From positions 1 through 39,799 of the IMG/VR virus record IMGVR_UViG_3300031787_000313: 39,799 nt of DNA; one strand, given 5' to 3'. This document shows positions 5,743 through 38,700 of this stretch, piece by piece. The DNA is from a virus. Below the pieces are notes generated by a model. The model searched no databases, was not told where the DNA came from, and saw nothing but the letters and a program-made list of their open reading frames with translations. Both the position numbers and the translations under genes were made by a program. How positions within the stretch are numbered: position 1 is the stretch's first letter; every line of letters begins with the position of its first letter.

Positions 5743-7499
5743 AAAAAACGATGGAAGATGATGACTTTGGAATCGATCTGGCTTCTTATGAAAAAGAAAA
5801 GGATGAAAATCTTGAAGATAGCTTCATTGATATGGAGTCTTATGCGCAGGAGAAGAATGAGAAGAAACCTGGATTTTGGGAAACGGCAGGTGATGTCTTT
5901 ACTCAAGCTGGTCGTGGAGCGCTGAAAGCTTTCACTTGGCCAGCGGACGTCCTGAAGCTAGGAATGATTGGTGAAGGGTTATCAGACCTTGACGATATTG
6001 AAGAAGCTTTTCGTAAAACAGGGAAGCCATTCAATAGAGAAGATTATGTGCGAAGTGTGTTTGAAGCAGCCCACTTTATTCCTACTCAAGATTTAGCTGA
6101 GAAAGGTTTTGAAGAATTGACAGGCATTTCTCTTGAGCCGAGAACTGGTTTAGGCAAAGGAACAAAACAATTTGCTGAGATTGCCTCTTTGACTCCTGGA
6201 GGCATTGCGAAAAAGTTAGCTTCTGGAGCTATTGGTGCTGGAACGACTCATGCGTTAGAGAAGGGCGGACTTGGAAAGACAAAAGCTGAAATTATTGGGG
6301 ATGTAGTTAGTTTGTCTCCGGCAGCTTTTGAAAAAACAGCCAAAGTAGTGCCTAAATCGGCAAGAGATTTAGAAAAAACAGCTCAAAAGTATGCACTTCC
6401 TTTTAAGGAATTCATGGTCAAAGAAAGGGAGCCTTTACTTAAAGGGCGTTTGTTTAAAAATGCCGAGTCTAATTTGAAAGAAGAATTAAAGCTCTCCACG
6501 AAAGAGGCGCTCAACCGAATTGTTGAGAACCAAATCCCAATTCGTAGGCTTCGTGATAAAGGTATAAACTTAGATGCCCTAGGCGAACATGCTTATGCAG
6601 AAACAAGGCGCATGGCCCAAGCAAAGCCTAATCTCATTAAAACAGATACGATTGTAGAAAATATTGATAGAGAAATTGCTCGTATAAAAGCATTAGCTCC
6701 ATCTCCAAGCGATGCACAAAAGAGCACGATCAAATTATTGGAAGAAGAGAGAGATATTTTGAAAGTATCAAATCCTTCTTCAGAGCAATTGATCAATCAA
6801 CATATGAATTATAACTCAGACATGAAATCGATTTATAAAAAGCCTGAGTTTTCTGGGAAAGAGGAACAGATAAGAAAGACTTACGAGTTTCTTAAAGATG
6901 AGCTAGTCGATGCAATGGCTAAGCACGGTAATGCAGATGTGTCTAATGCATTTAAAGCAGCAAATAAAATCTATCATGAGAAGTCTAAGCTTGTTCAGTC
7001 AGAGAGCATATTAGAGAAAGCTTTTCAAGACGGATACAGCTCAAAGAAACTCGACAGAATTCTTCATTCTAAGCAAGGAAATTACCTAAGAAGGAACTTA
7101 GGAGAGAAGGCCGTTGAAGAGATCATTGAAATAGCTAAGTATGGCAAAGAAGCGCAAGAAAAGATGACTAAATTCTTAGACCTACGTGGATCATCTGTAG
7201 CCAACGAAGTCAGATCTTTAGGGCAAATAGCTCCTTTCATTTACTTTCCACATAATATTAAAGGCGCGGCACTCTCGCTAGTAAAGCCTCTTGCAAAGCA
7301 TATACAAGGAAAACTGCTTACGAGAGATGCTACAAGACAAATATATAAACTCACTTTGAAGCACACCGCAGAAGGCGCTTTTAATTTGCTTAAGAAGGAT
7401 TTTGTCCAACTTGAGAGACAGATAGGCAAAGAATGGGGGAGTGTGGACGATTTCATGGACGACATGATGGGCGAATTAGAGATATATGACGCTGATTAA
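5736..7499 (+). CDS. Large internal virion / ejection protein
   Basis: This 587-residue protein overlaps the preceding gene by 7 bp. The N-terminus is acidic (MEDDDFGIDLASYEKEK, then a second similar ESY repeat). It is followed by a Gly/Ala-rich amphipathic segment around residues 140-180 (TPGGIAKKLASGAIGAGTTH) and then a long charged helical region with predicted coiled coil. This make-up, large, helical and with one membrane-active stretch, is what internal ejected proteins of podoviruses look like. No lysozyme or transglycosylase active-site motif was found, so it does not obviously digest cell wall. Confidence 0.55.
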   Translation: MVEKTMEDDDFGIDLASYEKEKDENLEDSFIDMESYAQEKNEKKPGFWETAGDVFTQAGRGALKAFTWPADVLKLGMIGEGLSDLDDIEEAFRKTGKPFNREDYVRSVFEAAHFIPTQDLAEKGFEELTGISLEPRTGLGKGTKQFAEIASLTPGGIAKKLASGAIGAGTTHALEKGGLGKTKAEIIGDVVSLSPAAFEKTAKVVPKSARDLEKTAQKYALPFKEFMVKEREPLLKGRLFKNAESNLKEELKLSTKEALNRIVENQIPIRRLRDKGINLDALGEHAYAETRRMAQAKPNLIKTDTIVENIDREIARIKALAPSPSDAQKSTIKLLEEERDILKVSNPSSEQLINQHMNYNSDMKSIYKKPEFSGKEEQIRKTYEFLKDELVDAMAKHGNADVSNAFKAANKIYHEKSKLVQSESILEKAFQDGYSSKKLDRILHSKQGNYLRRNLGEKAVEEIIEIAKYGKEAQEKMTKFLDLRGSSVANEVRSLGQIAPFIYFPHNIKGAALSLVKPLAKHIQGKLLTRDATRQIYKLTLKHTAEGAFNLLKKDFVQLERQIGKEWGSVDDFMDDMMGELEIYDAD

Positions 7500-10623: not shown

Positions 10624-10881
10624 ATGAATAGAAAACATCAACGCATACTAGAAGCTATCTTTTGTACGCCAGTAAGAACGAATATCAATTGGAAAGATGT
10701 AGAATCTTTATTTGTTGCTCTTGGAGCGAAAATTGAAGAAGGAAGAGGCTCGAGAGTAAGAATATTGCTTAATGATGAAGAAGCTGTATTCCATAGACCT
10801 CATCCACAGAAAGAAACCGATAAAGGAGCTGTAGTTTCTGTACGAAAATTTTTAGAAAATGCAGGAGTTAAGCCATGTTAA
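10624..10881 (+). CDS. hicA: HicA-family toxin (mRNA interferase-like)
   Basis: This 85-residue protein has the HicA layout: helical start, DVESLFVALGAKIEEGRGSRVRI, and a C-terminal VRKFLENAGVKP helix. HicA proteins are small double-stranded RNA-binding-fold ribonucleases that cut mRNA until neutralised by HicB. In well-studied HicA the catalytic His lies in a GSH motif; here that position reads GSR, with His residues only later in FHRPHP. The toxin is therefore either an Arg-variant subfamily or weakly active. It overlaps hicB by 7 bp, so translation is coupled. No ribosome site is present before the ATG. Confidence 0.85.
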   Translation: MNRKHQRILEAIFCTPVRTNINWKDVESLFVALGAKIEEGRGSRVRILLNDEEAVFHRPHPQKETDKGAVVSVRKFLENAGVKPC

Positions 10882-11189
10882 AATATAAAGGATACACAGG
10901 ATGCGTTGTTTATGACGACGAAGCACGGATCTTTCACGGAGAAGTCGCTGCGCTTAAGGCCGTGATTACGTTTCAGGGAACAACAGTCGATGAAATTGAA
11001 CAAGCCTTTAAAGATTCAATTGATGATTACATTGATTGGTGTAAAGAAAGAGGCAAAGAACCCGAAAAACCTCATTCAGGAAAATTTAATCTTAGAATGC
11101 CTCCAGATTTGTATGTCAAAGTAGTGGCTCATGCAGCGCAAGAAAGATTAAGTATTAATTCATATATTTTAAAAAGATTATCTGCATAG
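10875..11189 (+). CDS. hicB: HicB-family antitoxin
   Basis: This 104-residue protein starts inside the end of hicA. Residues 1-60 match the partial RNase-H-like HicB fold (YKGYTGCVVYDDEARIFHGEV, then DSIDDYIDWCKERG). Residues 70-104 form a ribbon-helix-helix DNA-binding unit (FNLRMPPDLYVKVVAHAA, then SINSYILKRL). It should bind and block HicA and repress its own promoter. The order toxin first, antitoxin second is usual for this family. Its end converges with the lipoprotein gene, with 10 bp between stops. Confidence 0.88.
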   Translation: MLKYKGYTGCVVYDDEARIFHGEVAALKAVITFQGTTVDEIEQAFKDSIDDYIDWCKERGKEPEKPHSGKFNLRMPPDLYVKVVAHAAQERLSINSYILKRLSA

Positions 11190-17985: not shown

Positions 17986-19828
17986 GTAAGTGCTCATAAA
18001 ATCGGGAAATTTAAGAGTATATGGACAAAATGGAGCTAAGCTACATTTAAGACAATGGCCAAATCGTTCACGGCATTCCGTGTAACTATCGATTGTATTC
18101 TTTCGCCAATGACCTCTCCAAGACGCGCTATTTTATTGAGACCGAGCAAACGGTCCATCAAAAAGTCGTAAAAACTAATACCAAGCCTACGACAGGTAAG
18201 ATTCAAACTGCCAAATGTATCCCACGCGCGTCGCCCAAGATTACTACGCGTACCGCCTGATATCTTACTTTTAACTTTAGCTCCACGACCGGCGATCTCA
18301 CTTAAATTATTGTGCAATGGTGTCGTTGGACGGTCTAACACAACTAAGAGCCGATTTCGCTTAGCATACGTTAAGGCAAGTCTATTATTGATGACCTGGT
18401 ACAATGAGGGTTGTTTTGGCCTAAAAAGGTCCTCAAACGATTGAGAGATTCTTATGCGTTCTAGTTCAGTAGGAGCTTCTTTATAATTTTTTAGGTCTTT
18501 ATATAGCTGCCATATCCCATCTCGCACCTTTTCAATTTCGACAGCGATTTCAGGCTGCGCAGGAACAAGTTTTCTGTAATGCCGTTCTTCGTGTATCCAG
18601 CAGAGGGAATTTTTGAATAGTTCGAATTGACCAGCATCGTCGCTATGAATGTGTAGATCACGAGGTACGCCATGCTCAATCAAACTTGCAAAAAGGCCAG
18701 CCTCAATCATTAAGCGCATTTCAGTGGCATTTAAGTAGCCAAGTTCATCAAAAAATGCTTTTTCAGGGTCCTGTGTGTTGATCACAAGGCCTTCTCGAAT
18801 ACTGAGCCTCTGAATCAGCTTTTCCGCTCCTTTGTGGACAGCCAAATAGTCGAGAGAATCCTGATTGAAGCGATACTCATTTCTACCCTGTGCCAGGATT
18901 GTCAGGAAATTGATACGACTCTTACTGTCTGTCGTTGACAAGTAGACAAAGAATTCACCGCATATCACATTCGTATAGCAGTTTTTAGCTTTGTGTCGCG
19001 TTCCGACATCATCTGTTTGAATTTGGCCAGACTCGAGTGCTGCTTTTAAAATTTCTTCCTTCTCAACATGGAAAGCGTCATGGTCTTCTGTTAGCATTTT
19101 ACTTAGCTGCCCAGCAGAAATAGCAATTTTGCAGCTACGTAATTGTTCCAAAATCAATTCTTCGGGAACACGGGATGAATGTGCTAGCTGAATCACATGC
19201 GCTCTTAATGCTGCCCCGTAGTGTCCCTGAATATGCAAAGGAAGATTTCCATGCACGAATGTTCCGTCTGGTAGTTCCCAGCGCTCCAGGAGATATCTTG
19301 TATTGAAGGCTTGATAGACGATGTCTTGAACATCATATTTAGAAGCGCCTTTGTACTTGGCTCCTTCCGGAAGATTGTCCGGTTTTAATCGCACTGTTCG
19401 TTGAAAGTTCAAGCCAGTCTTGTTTTTTCTTGGGTGCTTCCCTCTACCAGGCTTACCATCACCCTTTCCTGCAGGTCCGCTGCCCTGACCTTCAAGACGA
19501 TTAGGGGGTAATTTTGGACGAGGTGAGGTCCCTTTTAAACGCGCAATTTCATCTTTAAGAACTTGAATTTCCAATGACTGATTAGCAATGGCCTGCAAGG
19601 CCAGACTCAATTGATTCAAGACATTGGCATGCTCCTGCTGAAGTAGACTGTATTTCTGATGTAGGATGAAAAATTGATCTGATTGTGTCACTTCAATACC
19701 GTAAAAGCGATAAGAGACCGAAGGTATAACAATTAAAACTTAAAATAAAGTGTTTTGTTGTGGTTTCGCAGTTTTTTTTGCTGTCGCAAGTTCGCTATCT
19801 GCTAGGCCCACACTTTATGAGCACTTAC
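17986..19828 (-). mobile_element. Complete IS66-family insertion sequence with 8-bp target duplication
   Basis: The element is 1,843 bp. Its ends are perfect 15-bp inverted repeats, GTAAGTGCTCATAAA (17986-18000) and its complement (19814-19828), starting with the GTAA typical of IS66. Both flanks carry AAGGAATG (17978-17985 and 19829-19836), the 8-bp target duplication expected for this family. Only the large transposase is present, without the small tnpA/tnpB genes, as in the ISBst12 subgroup. Intact ends, intact gene and a perfect target duplication show a recent insertion. Confidence 0.96.
18036..19691 (-). CDS. IS66-family transposase (TnpC type)
   Basis: This 551-residue full-length transposase has an N-terminal coiled coil (QKYSLLQQEHANVLNQ to EIQVLKDEIARLKG), a Gly/Lys-rich linker with zinc-binding-like context, and the catalytic core: Asp in QTDDVGTRHKAK, Asp in HIHSDDAGQFELFK, and Glu in NLSEIAGRGAKVKSKISGG, the DDE triad. 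The C-terminus has the DTFGSLNLTCRRLG segment common in the family. It moves the surrounding element. The gene is unbroken, so the element may still be active. Confidence 0.95.
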   Translation of the reverse strand: MTQSDQFFILHQKYSLLQQEHANVLNQLSLALQAIANQSLEIQVLKDEIARLKGTSPRPKLPPNRLEGQGSGPAGKGDGKPGRGKHPRKNKTGLNFQRTVRLKPDNLPEGAKYKGASKYDVQDIVYQAFNTRYLLERWELPDGTFVHGNLPLHIQGHYGAALRAHVIQLAHSSRVPEELILEQLRSCKIAISAGQLSKMLTEDHDAFHVEKEEILKAALESGQIQTDDVGTRHKAKNCYTNVICGEFFVYLSTTDSKSRINFLTILAQGRNEYRFNQDSLDYLAVHKGAEKLIQRLSIREGLVINTQDPEKAFFDELGYLNATEMRLMIEAGLFASLIEHGVPRDLHIHSDDAGQFELFKNSLCWIHEERHYRKLVPAQPEIAVEIEKVRDGIWQLYKDLKNYKEAPTELERIRISQSFEDLFRPKQPSLYQVINNRLALTYAKRNRLLVVLDRPTTPLHNNLSEIAGRGAKVKSKISGGTRSNLGRRAWDTFGSLNLTCRRLGISFYDFLMDRLLGLNKIARLGEVIGERIQSIVTRNAVNDLAIVLNVA

Positions 19829-22209: not shown

Positions 22210-23115
22210 TTAATTTTCTTCTTGGCTCTTTCTTGGGTGAAACTGTCTAAACATCTCTTGCATCTTGTTGCTGGAGAGGTGCGTGTATCTTTGCGTCGAA
22301 GCAATCGAGCTATGGCCGAGCACCTCTTGAATCAAGCGAAGATCTGCGCCTTGATCGAGCAAGTGTGTTGCGCATGCATGCCTTAGAGTATGCGTTGTTA
22401 CTCCTTCGACTCCAGCTTTGTTGGCATAGTCACTCACAATTACACAGAGAAGCTGTCTGCGTAGTTTTTTTCTGAGCACCGTCAAGAACAAACATCCAGC
22501 TTTTCTTCCTCTGTACTTCTCTATGTAGGCTTGGATCGCTTTTGATGCGCTATCTGTCACTGGAATCGTGCGTGTCTTGCTTCGTTTCCCGCATTTAACC
22601 AGCACACAGTTCTCCTTAAAGTCTTCTAGCTGCAAATCACATAGCTCAGAAGCCCTTAAACCGGAAGAGTATAATAGCTCTAGTATAGCTTTGTCTCTGA
22701 CTCCAGATTCGGTTTTTGAACTAGGCATAGACAAGATTCTAGCCACTTCTTCTTGCGTAGGAACATACGGTGCTTTTAGGTTATTACGTGGGGGAGTAAT
22801 ATCCTCTGTAAGATCGAAGCCGACTAGTTTATTGCGTCTTAAGTAACGACAATAAGCGCGTATCGCCATGTAATACCTATTGATGCTAGCATCGCTTTTT
22901 CCTTTAGCTTTGCAATAGCTCAGATATTCCACGATGTGGTTTGGCTTGATTGAGGACATCCTCCGTACTTTTCTTTCATTCAAATACTGAAGAAAGTTGC
23001 CAACATCATATTTATATGCTTCAACTGTAGGTGCGCTTTTGCTTAGTGTCAGCTGTGCCAGAAACGCATTAATGCTTTCCAGCATCCAGCTTGAAATCAG
23101 GAGGCGATGTGTCAT
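22210..23115 (-). CDS. int: Tyrosine recombinase (Xer/integrase family)
   Basis: This 301-residue protein has an N-terminal core-binding domain (residues 13-95) and a catalytic domain with Arg154 (SSGLRASEL), Lys177 (CGKRSK), His242-x-x-Arg245 (HTLRHACATH), His268 (LGHSS) and the Tyr277 nucleophile (TQRYTHL). The full active site is present. Size and motif spacing fit the XerC/XerD-like branch, which resolves plasmid or chromosome dimers, or integrates phage genomes. Either use is possible here: dimer resolution for a plasmid state, or integration. The start overlaps the ribbon-helix-helix gene by 47 bp. Chlamydial plasmids also carry two such recombinases. Confidence 0.92.
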   Translation of the reverse strand: MTHRLLISSWMLESINAFLAQLTLSKSAPTVEAYKYDVGNFLQYLNERKVRRMSSIKPNHIVEYLSYCKAKGKSDASINRYYMAIRAYCRYLRRNKLVGFDLTEDITPPRNNLKAPYVPTQEEVARILSMPSSKTESGVRDKAILELLYSSGLRASELCDLQLEDFKENCVLVKCGKRSKTRTIPVTDSASKAIQAYIEKYRGRKAGCLFLTVLRKKLRRQLLCVIVSDYANKAGVEGVTTHTLRHACATHLLDQGADLRLIQEVLGHSSIASTQRYTHLSSNKMQEMFRQFHPRKSQEEN

Positions 23116-23770: not shown

Positions 23771-24199
23771 ATGAAAGGCAAGAAACTCACGCTTAAAGAA
23801 AGACAGGCAAAGCTTGAAGAGGACAAAAACGAAAGAAAGAAAATATTCAAAGAGCTTTGCGACCATGTCAGAGCAGGGTATAGTTTGGATTGTTTTGGAC
23901 CACTCAGCGAAGTTAGCATTCGAAAGTACCTAAAAGTCTATCAAGAAGAATTCATTCAGGAGGAATTAGACGCAGCTCTACGCGAATCAAAGACGTATTG
24001 GGAGGGAATTGGTCGACGCCAAGCCAATGGAGAATGCCTAGGGAACTCTAGAAGCTGGTATTACAACATGGCAAATAGGTTCGGCTGGCGTGAAAAGATC
24101 GACATTGAAGCCGAACATAAGGGTCAGGTTTCAGTCAATGTCATTAGCTATGCATCTCAGAAGGCTTCAGAAGATGCTGAGGATGAGGAATATCCATAA
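23771..24199 (+). CDS. terS: Terminase small subunit
   Basis: This 142-residue protein starts after AGGAGA. A charged N-terminal helix (LKERQAKLEEDKNERKKI) is followed by a helix-turn-helix-like FKELCDHVRAGYSLDCFG and IRKYLKVYQEE, and by the family-typical GNSRSWYYNMANRFGWREK. Small terminases bind the packaging site on the concatemer and load it onto the large subunit. Unusually, the large subunit gene lies 5.6 kb downstream rather than next door. The noncoding region just after it (24200-24709) is a plausible packaging site. Confidence 0.8.
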   Translation: MKGKKLTLKERQAKLEEDKNERKKIFKELCDHVRAGYSLDCFGPLSEVSIRKYLKVYQEEFIQEELDAALRESKTYWEGIGRRQANGECLGNSRSWYYNMANRFGWREKIDIEAEHKGQVSVNVISYASQKASEDAEDEEYP

Positions 24200-24239
24200 T
24201 AGAGATTATGAATACTTCTTTTTGCTCTTAAAATGAACC

Positions 24240-24655
24240 TAAAATTCTGGAGCGCAAGGGGGGTTGCCCCCATGGAGGGTACACACTCTATATTCAGGAC
24301 CTCACAAAAAATTTTTCACAACTTGGAGCCTTTTTTGTTCATTCCAGGGCTCAATTTCTATGAACTAAAGCTTTAGAAGGGGGCAAAAAACGGGACATGT
24401 CCCCCAAATGTCCTGTCCCTGTCCCGTGTCCCTTCAGCTTTATGTAAAGTTTTTATTTGACTGTTCTGAAAAAATATTATAAACTGTGGAGGTTGGGTGG
24501 GGTGGTTGGTTTAGCTCCTCTTTTTCTTTGTCTTTCTCTTTTTGCTTCTTTTTCTCTTTCTATTTCTTTTTCTCTTTTCACTACACAAAAACCCCTCTTT
24601 TTGCGATATTTTTCAGAAATTTTCATAGGTGTTCATAATAATATATAGTCTACTT
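24240..24655. other. Structured noncoding region (candidate packaging site or origin)
   Basis: The 510 bp between terS and the repressor gene hold no credible gene. They contain a G-run/C-run hairpin (24258-24271), the palindrome CTAAAGCTTTAG (24365-24376), the palindrome GGGACATGTCCC (24392-24403), five TGTCC words in 34 bp (24398, 24409, 24414, 24420, 24427), a G-rich stretch with repeated GG/GGG/GGGG runs that could form a quadruplex (24488-24509), and a 65-base pyrimidine tract (24515-24579, 62 of 65 C or T). This density of ordered elements fits an origin of replication or a packaging signal; which one cannot be decided here. Confidence 0.6.
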
Positions 24656-24677
24656 GGTATACTTTAGTTGCTATACC
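24656..24677. promoter_or_regulatory. Inverted repeat upstream of the XRE gene, candidate operator
   Basis: GGTATA (24656-24661) and TATACC (24672-24677) form an interrupted palindrome with a 10-bp centre, 33 bp before the repressor-like gene start. Its size and placement fit autoregulation by a helix-turn-helix dimer. Confidence 0.5.
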
Positions 24678-26978: not shown

Positions 26979-27635
26979 ATGATCGTTGTAGTCGGAGGAA
27001 TCAAAGGTGGCAGTGGTAAGACAACAATAGCCACCAATTTAGCTGTAATGAGAGCAGAATCTGGAAGTAAAGTTTTGTTGGTTGATGCAGATGAGCAGAA
27101 ATCAGCAAGTGATTGGGCGCAACAAAGAGAAGATGAAGGAGTCGATACTTCTTGGGTAACGGTAGAGTTGTCTGGAAAGGCGGTAAATGCTCAGTTGCAG
27201 AAGATGGGCGCCGATTATGATTATGTAATTATCGATGTTGGGGGAAGAGACACTACAAGCCAAAGATCTGCATTAGTGATAGCAGATGTTTTTGTGATTC
27301 CTTTCAAGCCGAGATCGTTGGACATTTGGACAATTGGGCCACTAAAAAAGATGATTGCAGAGATAAAAGCGGTAAATCCGAATTTGATCTGTTTAGCAGT
27401 AATCAATCAAGCGGATTCTAGAGGAGAAGATAACGAAGCTGCAATCGAAGTGTTAAAAGAGTGTCCCGATATTGAGTGCGCTCCGGTGTGTATTGGGCAA
27501 AGAAAGGCGTTTAGCAATGCTGCAGCTGATGGCCTGGGGGTTGTCGAATTAAAGGTACAAGACAAGAAGGCTACTCAAGAGATGAAAGCTTTGTATGAAT
27601 GTATATTTTCAACGTGTTTAGAACGCATTCAATAA
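26979..27635 (+). CDS. parA: ParA-family partition ATPase (type Ib)
   Basis: This 218-residue protein starts after GTAGGAG. It begins with the deviant Walker A motif GIKGGSGKTT (signature Lys9, catalytic Lys14), has VLLVDADEQKSASDW (A' region) and YDYVIIDVGGRD (Walker B), and lacks the extra N-terminal DNA-binding domain of type Ia ParA. ParA proteins bind DNA non-specifically with ATP and move plasmid copies apart before division. It forms an operon with the ribbon-helix-helix protein at 27675, and is preceded and followed by shared repeats. Its presence is the main sign of a plasmid-like state. Confidence 0.93.
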   Translation: MIVVVGGIKGGSGKTTIATNLAVMRAESGSKVLLVDADEQKSASDWAQQREDEGVDTSWVTVELSGKAVNAQLQKMGADYDYVIIDVGGRDTTSQRSALVIADVFVIPFKPRSLDIWTIGPLKKMIAEIKAVNPNLICLAVINQADSRGEDNEAAIEVLKECPDIECAPVCIGQRKAFSNAAADGLGVVELKVQDKKATQEMKALYECIFSTCLERIQ

Positions 27636-28071: not shown

Positions 28072-28458
28072 ATGAAAAACGATGTAATTAATAGTCCTTC
28101 TCACTACATATCTCAAAACGGGATAGAAGCTATACAGGTGATAGAAGCATTCAATCTGAACTTCAACCTTGGAAATGTCATAAAATACGCTCTAAGGTCT
28201 GGAAAGAAAGAAAATGAACTACAAGACCTAAAGAAAGCTTTATGGTATTTGAAACGTGAAATCGAAAGCGTAGAAGCCCTCGAAAATCGGTTAAAAGGGC
28301 CAATCTATAAACCGGCATATAACCAAAATAGCGTCGTTCCAAATGGTAAAAAGCCCTCTTTAAGCAAGCTAAAATCATCTGATAGTAAAAAGGTTAAAGA
28401 AGAACAAAGAACGAGCCTTATCGAAACACTTAAAAAGAAAAGTCAGGGAATATGTTAA
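28072..28458 (+). CDS. DUF3310 (nucleotide kinase-like) phage protein
   Basis: The ATG at 28072 follows GGAGGAG. The 128-residue product begins NDVINSPSHYISQNGIEAIQ, then FNLGNVIKYALRSGKKENEL and DLKKALWYLKREIE, the conserved DUF3310 motif string found in many phages, often annotated as nucleotide-kinase-like although no kinase active site is visible. The tail is Lys/Ser-rich. It overlaps the GroES-like gene by 7 bp. Biochemical role not established. Confidence 0.8.
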   Translation: MKNDVINSPSHYISQNGIEAIQVIEAFNLNFNLGNVIKYALRSGKKENELQDLKKALWYLKREIESVEALENRLKGPIYKPAYNQNSVVPNGKKPSLSKLKSSDSKKVKEEQRTSLIETLKKKSQGIC

Positions 28459-28706
28459 GAGCACTCGGACGCAATCTACTTGTGAAGATTAAACCACAAG
28501 AGAAGAAAAGTAGTTTAATCCTAAATGTTACGATTAAAGATGAGCCTTTTGAAGTTGTCTTGGTCAATAAAGGCGGGGGAGTTGAACTTGAAGTTGAGCC
28601 TGGAGAAACACTGCTAATAGTTCCTTATGCTGGTTCCAAGATTAACAAAACAGATGAAGAACATTTGCTGGTTACAGAACGAGATATCTTAGGAGTTGTT
28701 GAGTAG
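28452..28706 (+). CDS. GroES-like co-chaperonin
   Basis: This 84-residue protein follows the Cpn10 order: MLRALGRNLLVKIKPQEKKS at the start, a central VVLVNKGG with LEVEPGETLLIVPYAGSKI, and the end DEEHLLVTERDILGVVE (GroES: LIMRESDILAIVE-like). It is slightly shorter than GroES (about 97), mostly in the mobile-loop region (residues 20-32), which contains SSLILN. A phage co-chaperonin replaces the host GroES so that GroEL can fold the large capsid protein, as T4 gp31 does. Fold assignment is by pattern and is fairly clear. Confidence 0.7.
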   Translation: MLRALGRNLLVKIKPQEKKSSLILNVTIKDEPFEVVLVNKGGGVELEVEPGETLLIVPYAGSKINKTDEEHLLVTERDILGVVE

Positions 28707-29832: not shown

Positions 29833-31164
29833 GTGGGCAAATTAACGCTTCCCTATGGATATTCACCCAGGCCATACCAAGAGAAAATTTTAAACGCCTT
29901 AGACGACGGTTGCCGAAACGCATGTTGGGTCGTACATAGACGGGGCGGTAAAGACACCACTATGTGGAATTATATGATTAAACGTGCCTATCTTGAGCCT
30001 GGTACTTACTACTATTTTCTTCCTTCCTTTGCTCAGGCTAAGCGTGTAGTTTGGGATGGTATGACAAACACTGGCCAACGAATGCTCGACTACATTCCTA
30101 AGCAAATTGTTGATGGAAATCCGAATAACACTGAGATGAAGATATGGATCAAGGGAGCTAAAGGTCTGTCTTTGATACAGCTTATAGGAGCCGATAGCTA
30201 CGACGCTATCATGGGAACCAACCCAAGAGGAGTCATTTTCAGTGAGTGGTCTCTTATGGATCCTATGGCATATGATTTCGTTAAACCAATTCTGGCAGCC
30301 AACGGTGGATGGTGTGCTTTTATCTATACGCCTCGAGGTAAAAACCATGGGTGGGAGCTTGCCGAAATTGCCCGTAAGAATCCGTCTGACTGGTTCTTCC
30401 AAGTCCTTACCGTTAGAGATACCGGAGTGTTGACTGAAGAGCAAGTAGAAGCCGAGCGCCGCAAAGGGATGCCAGAAGACATGATTCAGCAAGAGTTTTA
30501 TTGCAACTTTAATCGAGGTCAAGAAGGCTCCTATTATGGCCGCCAGATAGACGAATTGCGCAAAAAAGGACAGATCACAAGAGTTGCGTATGATCCAGCA
30601 GTACCCGTTAGAACGTATTGGGACCTCGGTGTCGGCGATTCTACGGCTATTTGGTTTGCTCAGTTTGTTGGAAAAGAGATTCATCTTGTCAATTATTATG
30701 AAAATTCAGGCGAAGGTTTAACGCATTATGCACGCATTTTAGACGAATACCGCAGAGAGACTGGCTGCGTATATGATCTTCACGTTGCCCCGCATGATAT
30801 TCAAGCGAGGGAGTTAACAACTGGTGCGACAAGACTCGAAACAGCTCGTCGTTTGGGTCTGAACTTCCGTGTTGCGCCAAAACTGAGCTTGGAATCGGGG
30901 ATTGAAGCGGTGAGGATGACTCTTTCCCGATGTTGGTTCGATGAAAAAGGTTGCGAGCACGGACTGAAATGCCTTGAAAACTATCGCAAGCAATACAACG
31001 AAAAGTATCGTGTCTATAGCGATCGTCCGCACCATGACTATTCATCTCATGGAGCAGATGCCTTTCGTATGATGGCGATAACGGAGCAGAATCATCGCTC
31101 GGATCGAGGCGTAAATGACTCAGATTACGATCGCATGAAGGGTCTGTGGGGCTGGAAAGCATAA
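29833..31164 (+). CDS. terL: Terminase large subunit
   Basis: This 443-residue protein starts on a GTG after AAGGAGAA. The ATPase part has Walker A HRRGGKDTT (residues 35-43, the phage-type RxGK), Walker B VIFSE with catalytic Glu138, and a coupling TPRGKNHGW. The nuclease part has Asp in YWDLGVGDST and the late HDYSSHGADAFRM with Asp near the end, the RNase H-like acidic pair. It pumps the genome into the capsid through the portal and cuts it. Orientation and operon break show it is not directly adjacent to the small subunit. Confidence 0.95.
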   Translation: MGKLTLPYGYSPRPYQEKILNALDDGCRNACWVVHRRGGKDTTMWNYMIKRAYLEPGTYYYFLPSFAQAKRVVWDGMTNTGQRMLDYIPKQIVDGNPNNTEMKIWIKGAKGLSLIQLIGADSYDAIMGTNPRGVIFSEWSLMDPMAYDFVKPILAANGGWCAFIYTPRGKNHGWELAEIARKNPSDWFFQVLTVRDTGVLTEEQVEAERRKGMPEDMIQQEFYCNFNRGQEGSYYGRQIDELRKKGQITRVAYDPAVPVRTYWDLGVGDSTAIWFAQFVGKEIHLVNYYENSGEGLTHYARILDEYRRETGCVYDLHVAPHDIQARELTTGATRLETARRLGLNFRVAPKLSLESGIEAVRMTLSRCWFDEKGCEHGLKCLENYRKQYNEKYRVYSDRPHHDYSSHGADAFRMMAITEQNHRSDRGVNDSDYDRMKGLWGWKA

Positions 31165-31185: not shown

Positions 31186-32190
31186 TTATTCTATTAGCTG
31201 CTGTAGGGCTCTTTGAAAAACCTCTGGAGGCAAATAGTAATAATAATCTTTTCCAGTCTCAGTGTCTTGGCAGTAGCGCTTGTTTATTTTCAGGCTTTGT
31301 AGCCGGTATTTTTTCTTAAGATTTTCAGCAAATTCTTTGTTTTCCTTAGTGGATTTGTCTACCTCAGTAAACTTTTTCTTTAACGCCACCTCCATCCAGG
31401 CTTCAGGTTTTGGTATAGGCTTTGCTTGCTTGGACTTCACTTGGAAGAAAAATTTTACGGTTTCTAGAACAGTTTTTGGGCTATATTTCTTTATCCAGCG
31501 GGTCACAATTTCTGGACGGAAAAAGGGCGCATATTCTGGCTCCATCTCAATGAGTTCCAATAGTTCAGGACTCGAAAAATCAATCGAAAAACCTTCTGAA
31601 TAAGAAGGAATCGAATTAGTCGAATCTTGAGATGGCTTCTTGGGAGGAGGTGGAGTTGGAGGAGGAGCGCTTGGTGGCGAGTCTTTTGGCTGAGAGGAGT
31701 TATGAACAATTGGCCTAATCGATTCTTTTATAGATCTTCTTTGTTCGATCTTATTTAATACTTCCTGGCCCTCGGGTTCCCCGCCCTCGGGATTCCAAGG
31801 TTCAGGATGTCGAAAACATTTTTTGAAATTCCACTTATGTTCAACCTGTATATTGCTAGCGCTCAACTCTTTTTCGTTTTCTTTTATGTAATCTTGACAA
31901 GTTATTATTTGATCGAAAAAGATATAGTCAACCTCAGCTCTAAGGTTTCCTCTTAATGATCGAATGCGAATGCAATGTCCTTTTTCAACGAGTTCGTCAA
32001 AAGCGGCATAGGTTTTATCGCGACTGAGCTTTAGATTTTTCCAAATACTGACTGGTCGATATTTCCAATCATTTGGGTAGGATAGACAGGTAACTAGTAC
32101 GGCAAGGGCGTTGGCCGAGAGGTAAAATCCTTGGATAACGTCGTTGGGTACAGAGGTAAATTCTTGTTTGATTGTTCTAAAGCGGACCAT
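31186..32190 (-). CDS. Replication-initiator-like protein with N-terminal winged helix
   Basis: The ATG at 32190 has TGGAG upstream; an ATG at 32250 would add 20 residues with no ribosome site. The 334-residue product starts with FTSVPNDVIQGFYLSANALA, then LSYPNDWKYRPVSIWKNLKL and a recognition helix SRDKTYAAFDELVEKG, a winged-helix domain of the type found in plasmid and phage replication initiators. A Pro-rich linker (SAPPPTPPPPKKP) leads to a second helical domain (FRPEIVTRWIKKYSPKTVLE). It lies antisense inside the terminase-portal interval. A role as the initiator for plasmid replication is a reasonable inference. Confidence 0.68.
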   Translation of the reverse strand: MVRFRTIKQEFTSVPNDVIQGFYLSANALAVLVTCLSYPNDWKYRPVSIWKNLKLSRDKTYAAFDELVEKGHCIRIRSLRGNLRAEVDYIFFDQIITCQDYIKENEKELSASNIQVEHKWNFKKCFRHPEPWNPEGGEPEGQEVLNKIEQRRSIKESIRPIVHNSSQPKDSPPSAPPPTPPPPKKPSQDSTNSIPSYSEGFSIDFSSPELLELIEMEPEYAPFFRPEIVTRWIKKYSPKTVLETVKFFFQVKSKQAKPIPKPEAWMEVALKKKFTEVDKSTKENKEFAENLKKKYRLQSLKINKRYCQDTETGKDYYYYLPPEVFQRALQQLIE

Positions 32191-32226
32191 TTCAACTCCA
32201 TAATTTTTGCGTAGGCGTATTTTCGC

Positions 32227-32255
32227 GTGGCAAAAAATATAGAGTGTCATATAAT
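32227..32255 (+). promoter_or_regulatory. Promoter of a predicted small RNA
   Basis: GTGGCA (32227-32232), 17 bp, TATAAT (32250-32255): a perfect -10 with a moderate -35 box. It lies in the leader region of the opposite-strand initiator gene. Confidence 0.55.
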
Positions 32256-38037: not shown

Positions 38038-38700
38038 ATGTCACAATACAGATTTGGTACATTTACAGCCCCCTCAACTGCTGCTGCGCAGACAATCACT
38101 TTGGGGTTTGTTCCTAGCAAGTTTAAGCTAGTTAACTACACAGGGTATGCAACTGCGACAGTTGTTTCAGAAGCTGAATTCAATTACGGAATGGCGGCTG
38201 GCTATGCTCTTATCAAGACAACATCTACTGATGCTGATGTAACGGGCGTATATCAAGTTCCGTCTATTCTTACAAGCAACGGATTTACAACCTTTAACAC
38301 AGGTGCTTCCTGGACAGCTACTCAAGCTACTATTTCAGCAGCAACAAAGGCTAATCCTTGCGTGATTACTGCTACTGCTCATGGTTTCTCTACAGGAGAC
38401 ACTGTGACAATCAGTGGTGTAAGAGGAATGACTCAGCTAAATGCTAACCGTTATCTTATTACGGTGGTTGATGCAAACTCATTTAGCTTAAGGGATCTTT
38501 TCGGAAACGCAGTCGATTCTTCTGCATATGGTACTTACACTTCTGGCGGTATTGCTAATAAGATTTCTTCTAGTAGTACGCCTCCAGGAAACCAATATGA
38601 CACAGGATCGTCTGGTATTATTCTCGGAACATCTTTGTTCCGTAACAATGCTGACGTTTTCTACTGGGAAGCTTGGACGCAAACGCCGACTGGCTGGTAG
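38038..38700 (+). CDS. Head decoration / structural protein with FCCH-like domain
   Basis: This 220-residue protein follows the capsid gene by 15 bp with AGGAGG. Residues about 98-150 read KANPCVITATAHGFSTGDTV, then TISGVRGMTQLN, the beta domain that databases name after the first catalytic-cysteine half of E1 enzymes (FCCH) but which in phages is a common structural module. N- and C-terminal parts are Thr/Gly/Ser-rich. A capsid decoration or head-associated role fits. It has no enzyme activity implied. Confidence 0.7.
   Translation: MSQYRFGTFTAPSTAAAQTITLGFVPSKFKLVNYTGYATATVVSEAEFNYGMAAGYALIKTTSTDADVTGVYQVPSILTSNGFTTFNTGASWTATQATISAATKANPCVITATAHGFSTGDTVTISGVRGMTQLNANRYLITVVDANSFSLRDLFGNAVDSSAYGTYTSGGIANKISSSSTPPGNQYDTGSSGIILGTSLFRNNADVFYWEAWTQTPTGW

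Follow-up and report, generated by a model that had tools for sequence, protein, structure and literature searches.

The genome of an uncultured lake virus of bacteria, IMG/VR contig IMGVR_UViG_3300031787_000313, carries a gene-free stretch directly after the putative gene for the small terminase subunit, terS, which raises the question of what such a stretch does. A preliminary description had proposed a packaging site or a replication origin. Comparison of the locus in about 28 related uncultured phage genomes of ~40 kb suggests that it is probably a genome-processing junction, comprising a crossover site (Box A), a packaging site (Box B) and, in its right half, the leader of the next operon. 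The whole stretch of DNA analysed, 39,799 nt, is referred to as the window.

Genome context and virus family

The window contig is circular, its last 140 bases repeating the first 140 with one mismatch. It encodes tailed-phage proteins, namely a P22-like portal (E=1e-53), an N4-gp56-type capsid protein, the large terminase subunit TerL and a protein with a gp53-like tail-fibre domain, together with an Erf annealing protein, an exonuclease, a DnaB-like helicase and RusA. Plasmid-type genes for ParA and a Rep-like protein are also present, as is a gene for a XerD-like recombinase. This gene content points to a temperate tailed phage with podophage-type structural genes, which is probably partly plasmid-like. 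The ParA partition ATPase (26979-27635, plus strand) and the Rep-like initiator (31186-32250, minus strand) form a pair that suggests a phage-plasmid lifestyle and is detectable in only a minority of the relatives. Other genes include an IS66-type transposase (18036-19691, minus strand), ~37% identical to plasmid-borne copies; a HicA-type toxin gene and, after it, a 104-aa ORF for a possible antitoxin (10624-11189, plus strand); a small chaperonin-10-like protein (28452-28706, plus strand; Cpn10, E=5e-8); and a protein of the structural region (38038-38700, plus strand) that matches the FCCH domain of ubiquitin-activating enzyme E1 (E=1e-14).

DNA comparison with named phages revealed no relative. 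TerL is at best ~43% identical to known large terminases, those of environmental phages, and the family consists of ~35 IMG/VR contigs with TerL proteins 79-100% identical, the next group lying near 41%. The near-full-length contigs span a narrow range of sizes, about 38.1-41.5 kb. Scans of 84,980 GTDB species genomes with TerS and TerL yielded no relative. The Rep-like protein has one match, to a plasmid of Protochlamydia naegleriophila (E=2e-7); since this match is weak and the best matches of ParA and the IS66 transposase fall in other, unrelated groups, no host was assigned.

The putative terS gene and the dif-type site at its end

The following features of the locus and its surroundings are considered below.

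22210-23115, minus strand: XerD-like tyrosine recombinase, 301 aa, from matches to XerD
23771-24199, plus strand: putative terS, small terminase subunit, 142 aa, from weak homology and predicted fold
24189-24216: Box A, predicted dif/Xer-type recombination site with arms AATATCCATAA and TTATGAATACT and the 6-bp centre TAGAGA
24241-24348, plus strand: Box B, candidate terminase recognition and cleavage site (cos or pac), ~108 bp, rigid
24258-24271: G/C core of Box B, GGGGGGTTGCCCCC, candidate cutting point
24306-24316: A-tract of Box B, AAAAAATTTTT, at a nearly fixed distance from the core
24317-24350, plus strand: T-tract subrepeat of Box B, with partial copies downstream in some relatives
24365-24431: two 12-bp palindromes and TGTCC cluster, lineage-specific and not conserved
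24457-24485, plus strand: sigma70-like promoter TTGACT-N17-TAAACT, recognised from the sequence
24487-24579, plus strand: G-rich run followed by a pyrimidine tract, probably transcribed as the leader of the rightward operon
29833-31164, plus strand: terL, large terminase subunit (phrog_2 terminase large subunit, E=7e-26)

The product of 23771-24199 is tentatively assigned as TerS on weak homology. It is 44% identical to the terminase small subunit of Pseudomonas phage AH02 over residues 77-124 (tblastn, E=2e-6), and one family member matches phrog_309, terminase small subunit (E=6e-4). The AF2 model has an N-terminal helical domain and a long helix (pLDDT 76); terminase small subunits are among its matches in a comparison with viral folds, with a probability of 1.00 but E=0.14, and a PDB fold search with the model gave no match.

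Box A (CATAATAGAGATTATG) overlaps the terS stop codon and has the pattern CATAA-N6-TTATG. Its layout over 28 bp, with a 6-bp centre between two 11-bp arms that end inwards in CATAA and TTATG, is that of bacterial dif sites, including those of XerCD and of the single-recombinase variants XerH/difH and XerS/difSL. It matches E. coli dif (GGTGCGCATAATGTATATTATGTTAAAT; PMC3025954) at 16 of 28 bases. The exact sequence CATAATN4ATTATG occurs once in the window, with 0 copies expected from 100 shuffles, while a looser pattern allowing one mismatch does produce chance matches. In 22 aligned members this layout recurs where terS stops. Per-column counts show that the TTATG arm, like the TAA with which the left arm ends, is almost invariant, whereas the four central bases vary; fixed arms around a variable centre are expected of a tyrosine-recombinase crossover region. 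The exceptions are L008, with a 7-bp centre, L070, with a poor site, and L126, in which the site is degenerate. The preliminary description missed Box B as well as Box A, which begins before position 24240, where the region then delimited started.

The XerD-like recombinase matches the NCBIfam XerD model (E=4e-80, below the model's cut-off) and E. coli XerD 1a0p (E=4e-35), the alignment covering the regions of the R, K, H-xx-R, H and Y motifs. Its gene occurs in 21 of 25 records; of the four lacking it, three are fragments. G015, the remaining one, is of nearly full length; a different integrase occupies the place of the recombinase gene, and Box A is missing while Box B is kept. The most diverged recombinases, those of G016 (44%) and G001 (48%), go with the most degenerate Box A sites, although L126, with a XerD-like gene and a degenerate Box A, breaks this co-variation. 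By sequence comparison, Box A is linked to the recombinase gene, and it looks like the target of the phage's own Xer-type recombinase. As in bacterial dif systems, the right arm is the better conserved and there is a cognate XerD-like tyrosine recombinase, encoded near its own site as in XerS/difSL (PMC5357621); unlike bacterial dif, Box A is phage-borne and lies beside a packaging gene. The integrative mobile elements (IMEX) CTXphi, VGJphi and TLCphi likewise carry a single dif-like site on the phage genome, but these phages rely on XerCD of the host and insert at the chromosomal dif (PMC5357621). The window phage, by contrast, encodes a XerD-like protein of its own, and no integrated copy was found among the 29 terS-bearing contigs or in the GTDB species genomes scanned with TerS and TerL.

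A conserved block downstream of terS

Box B is located 30-150 bp after the terS stop codon in every relative readable there, while the flanking genes differ. Its elements follow a constant order in the relatives: the G/C core, a spacer that hardly varies in length and ends in a CAGGACC-like sequence, AAAAATTTTT, CCAA and AGG-TTTTTT subrepeats. Extra partial copies of the T-tract follow it in L006, L009, L046, L048, L019 and L126. Leave-one-out profile searches recovered Box B in all 25 modelled genomes with E-values from 1e-9 to 1e-23; for the window, the nhmmer value was 6e-19 and the next best match had E=0.7. Three sequences outside the model also contain it (L110, E=2e-17; L126, E=4e-21; L130, E=4e-18). 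Apart from short partial copies directly downstream in several members, Box B was the sole strong match in each family sequence, the search covering the whole window and, for most relatives, a locus of 10-20 kb. Sequence comparison establishes the conservation, uniqueness and placement of Box B and its linkage to terS.

The core is GGGG..CCCC in 18 of 28 members and CCCC..CCCC in the other ten, so that its left half flips between GGGG and CCCC in otherwise similar sites. A G/C stem of at least 4 pairs can form in 17 of the 28, and ten have a CCCC direct repeat; the loss of the stem in many members, together with this repeat, argues for a DNA site rather than an RNA hairpin. The divergence of Box B is only weakly correlated with that of TerS (partial r=0.15, p=0.08, with the site saturated). 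The presence of Box B in G015, where both the XerD-like gene and Box A are missing, indicates that it is independent of the Xer system, and a role as Xer accessory sequence was rejected on this ground. Box B follows neither the Rep-like gene (8 of 25 records) nor ParA (5 of 25), and a ParA centromere or Rep origin was rejected as its role, since Box B is kept where those genes were undetected.

The right half of the noncoding region

The gap between convincing genes extends from 24200 to 24667, in agreement with its description as gene-free; with its 468 bp it is exceeded by others, of 752 and 563 bp, in the gene set used. The features on which the proposals of a packaging site or an origin had been based lie mostly to the right of Box A and Box B. 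They are real and mostly above chance, but they are not the conserved part. The two perfect 12-bp palindromes were confirmed at 24365-24376 (CTAAAGCTTTAG) and 24392-24403 (GGGACATGTCCC); the window has 11 perfect palindromes of at least 12 bp, and for two in the gap a first-order Markov model of its sequence gives P ~0.01. The five TGTCC words were likewise confirmed and span 24398-24431, a density reached in 0 of 3000 simulated gaps and 0 of 300 simulated windows. The G-run reported as fit for a quadruplex is present at 24487-24508 (GGAGGTTGGGTGGGGTGGTTGG), but the sole classical G3 quadruplex motif is elsewhere, on the minus strand inside the TGTCC repeats (24401-24432). The 65-base pyrimidine tract (24515-24579) contains 62 pyrimidines, but its longest pure run is just 17.

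The right half containing these features (24350-24660) is not conserved as a block. Used as a query, 24200-24350 matches most of the family, whereas 24351-24667 matches only L002, identically, and L012, L064, L003 and L011 through the unit of promoter, G-run and pyrimidine tract or through short pieces. The features are kept as a set in L002 only, where both the gap and TerS are identical to those of the window. In L005 (about 10777-10850), L012 (3330-3450) and L064 (about 6780-6870), a G-rich run again comes directly after a promoter-like TTGAC sequence, at varying distances from terS, and the unit is therefore read as a transcribed leader; the leader-like unit of L012 is 74% identical over 112 bp (nhmmer E=7e-4), and a pyrimidine-rich tract follows the G-run in the window and in L012. 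The G-run and pyrimidine tract are thus the probable promoter-linked leader of the next operon, possibly with a Rho-type or anti-termination role. RNA folding of 24487-24579 gave nothing unusual (z=+1.3).

A probable role in genome packaging

Box B stays with terS when the Xer system is exchanged and is present without detectable ParA or Rep-like genes; packaging is therefore its simplest role. The packaging site suggested near terS is supported in the form of this conserved single-copy site directly downstream of the gene, but it is relocated to the left part of the region, 24241-24348, and the palindromes, TGTCC words and pyrimidine tract are not part of it. Box B is probably the place where the packaging machine recognises and cuts the genome. 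For TerS binding, cutting, packaging direction, recombination and the choice between cos and pac, we infer the following scheme. The A-tract and T-tract subrepeats of Box B would be bound by TerS, the product of the neighbouring gene, and the cut made by TerL would fall in the G/C core or close to it, with packaging probably running rightwards. Where a genome dimer, or a linear genome with terminal redundancy, contains two copies of Box A, these would recombine at the 6-bp centre, giving monomeric circles; integration at a matching host site through Box A may also be possible.

A cos site is slightly favoured over headful pac. As would be expected of cos, a single conserved site is linked to the terminase genes. 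In HK97, TerS reportedly reads a G with an A-tract next to it, at 15-29 bp from the cos cut (PMC11331095), and Box B similarly has an A-tract with a neighbouring G close to the candidate cutting point. The HK97 TerS-cos complex may thus serve as a mechanistic parallel rather than a homologue: the A-tract lies 35 bp beyond the core here, Box B follows terS whereas cos precedes it in HK97, and the HNH gene found beside the HK97 cos has no counterpart among the proteins scanned. Searches with nhmmer detected no similarity of Box B to the HK97 cos region and junction or to sampled stretches of phages with related TerL, and no Box B was found in the stretches fetched from AH02, ct3Et533, ZCVPP1, ZP6, BUCT555 and 22O28-1.

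If Box B were instead the initiation site of headful packaging, TerS would bind it, TerL would make the first cut nearby, and later cuts would be set by head size, yielding terminally redundant, circularly permuted genomes. This is a substantial possibility, though short of probable. The P22-like portal fits headful packaging equally well, and P22-type pac is, like Box B, a single site near terS. P22 pac lies inside terS (gene 3), whereas Box B is a separate noncoding block of 108 bp after the gene. Contigs of the family assemble as circles with varied break points, and a circular assembly fits pac and cos alike. Box B, with its length, rigid spacing, G/C core and A-tract, is more cos-like than a loosely read pac site. 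The narrow sizes of the near-full-length contigs also speak against headful packaging, and so does the contig that holds L017, which is circular with an assembler overlap and is broken exactly in the core. The break is weak evidence, since it was noticed post hoc and concerns only 1 of 29 contigs. Under headful packaging, Box A and the XerD-like enzyme could circularise or monomerise the genomes like Cre-loxP of P1, which is reported to keep a recombinase and site of its own for staying monomeric (PMC2409434). Both phages combine a phage-encoded tyrosine recombinase with a single site, and a role in maintaining genome monomers is plausible here too. Unlike in P1, the recombinase scores as XerD/XerC rather than Cre, the site is dif-like rather than a 34-bp lox, and it lies within ~70 bp of the candidate packaging core.

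Other possible roles for the locus

Box A and Box B together could form an attP site, or a cer/psi-like Xer site in which Box B serves as accessory sequence. A Xer-type Box A near a tyrosine recombinase gene would suit such a site, as would the constant presence of Box B within ~150 bp of Box A. The spacing between the two varies widely, however, and G015 keeps Box B alone. Moreover, terS and Box B are joined in 29 of 29 terS-bearing contigs, so none of these ends or enters host DNA at Box A. Together with the absence of TerS or TerL relatives from the species genomes scanned, this makes a combined site unlikely, and for Box A itself favours monomer resolution or circularisation over integration.

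The proposed replication origin was not borne out and is very unlikely. The detrended GC, AT and purine skews do have minima near the region, at 23.6-25.0 kb, and strand-biased tracts exist. The minima, however, fall where the minus-strand genes of 17.7-23.4 kb give way to plus-strand genes; plus-strand genes on the two sides have the same positive skew (+0.071 and +0.119) and minus-strand genes a negative one. The skew thus follows the gene strand, with no turn beyond it, and lends no independent support to an origin. Neither iterons common to the relatives nor an initiator-linked site was found, and the tracts are not kept as a block in the relatives.

Finally, an RNA element or a transcription terminator of terS is hardly credible: the core in the window can form a 5-bp G/C stem, but a 4-pair stem is lost in 11 of 28 members, no Rfam match was obtained, and there is no terminator-like site on the plus strand at Box B.

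Implications for the phage family

The components of the junction, a dif-type site and a packaging site, are of known kinds. What appears to be new is that they sit next to each other where terS ends and that this arrangement is conserved in an uncultured family with its own XerD-like gene; no description of a dif-type site beside a packaging site at the terS end was found in the incomplete selection of literature searched. It is rare for the packaging site of an uncultured phage to be located precisely, and the one predicted here is placed with a precision of tens of bases in ~28 genomes of a family without close named relatives. The Box A/Box B locus may also serve as a marker for finding relatives and the host.

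A packaging site beside a phage-owned Xer/dif system offers a direct test of how unit-length genomes form and persist. It is conceivable, though rather doubtful, that a single compact locus couples packaging with resolution, the terminase cutting at Box B and Xer recombination occurring at Box A ~40 bp away. If so, monomerisation or circularisation would be physically tied to the place where the genome is cut, and if Box A also serves integration, the prophage and virion maps would be nearly collinear.
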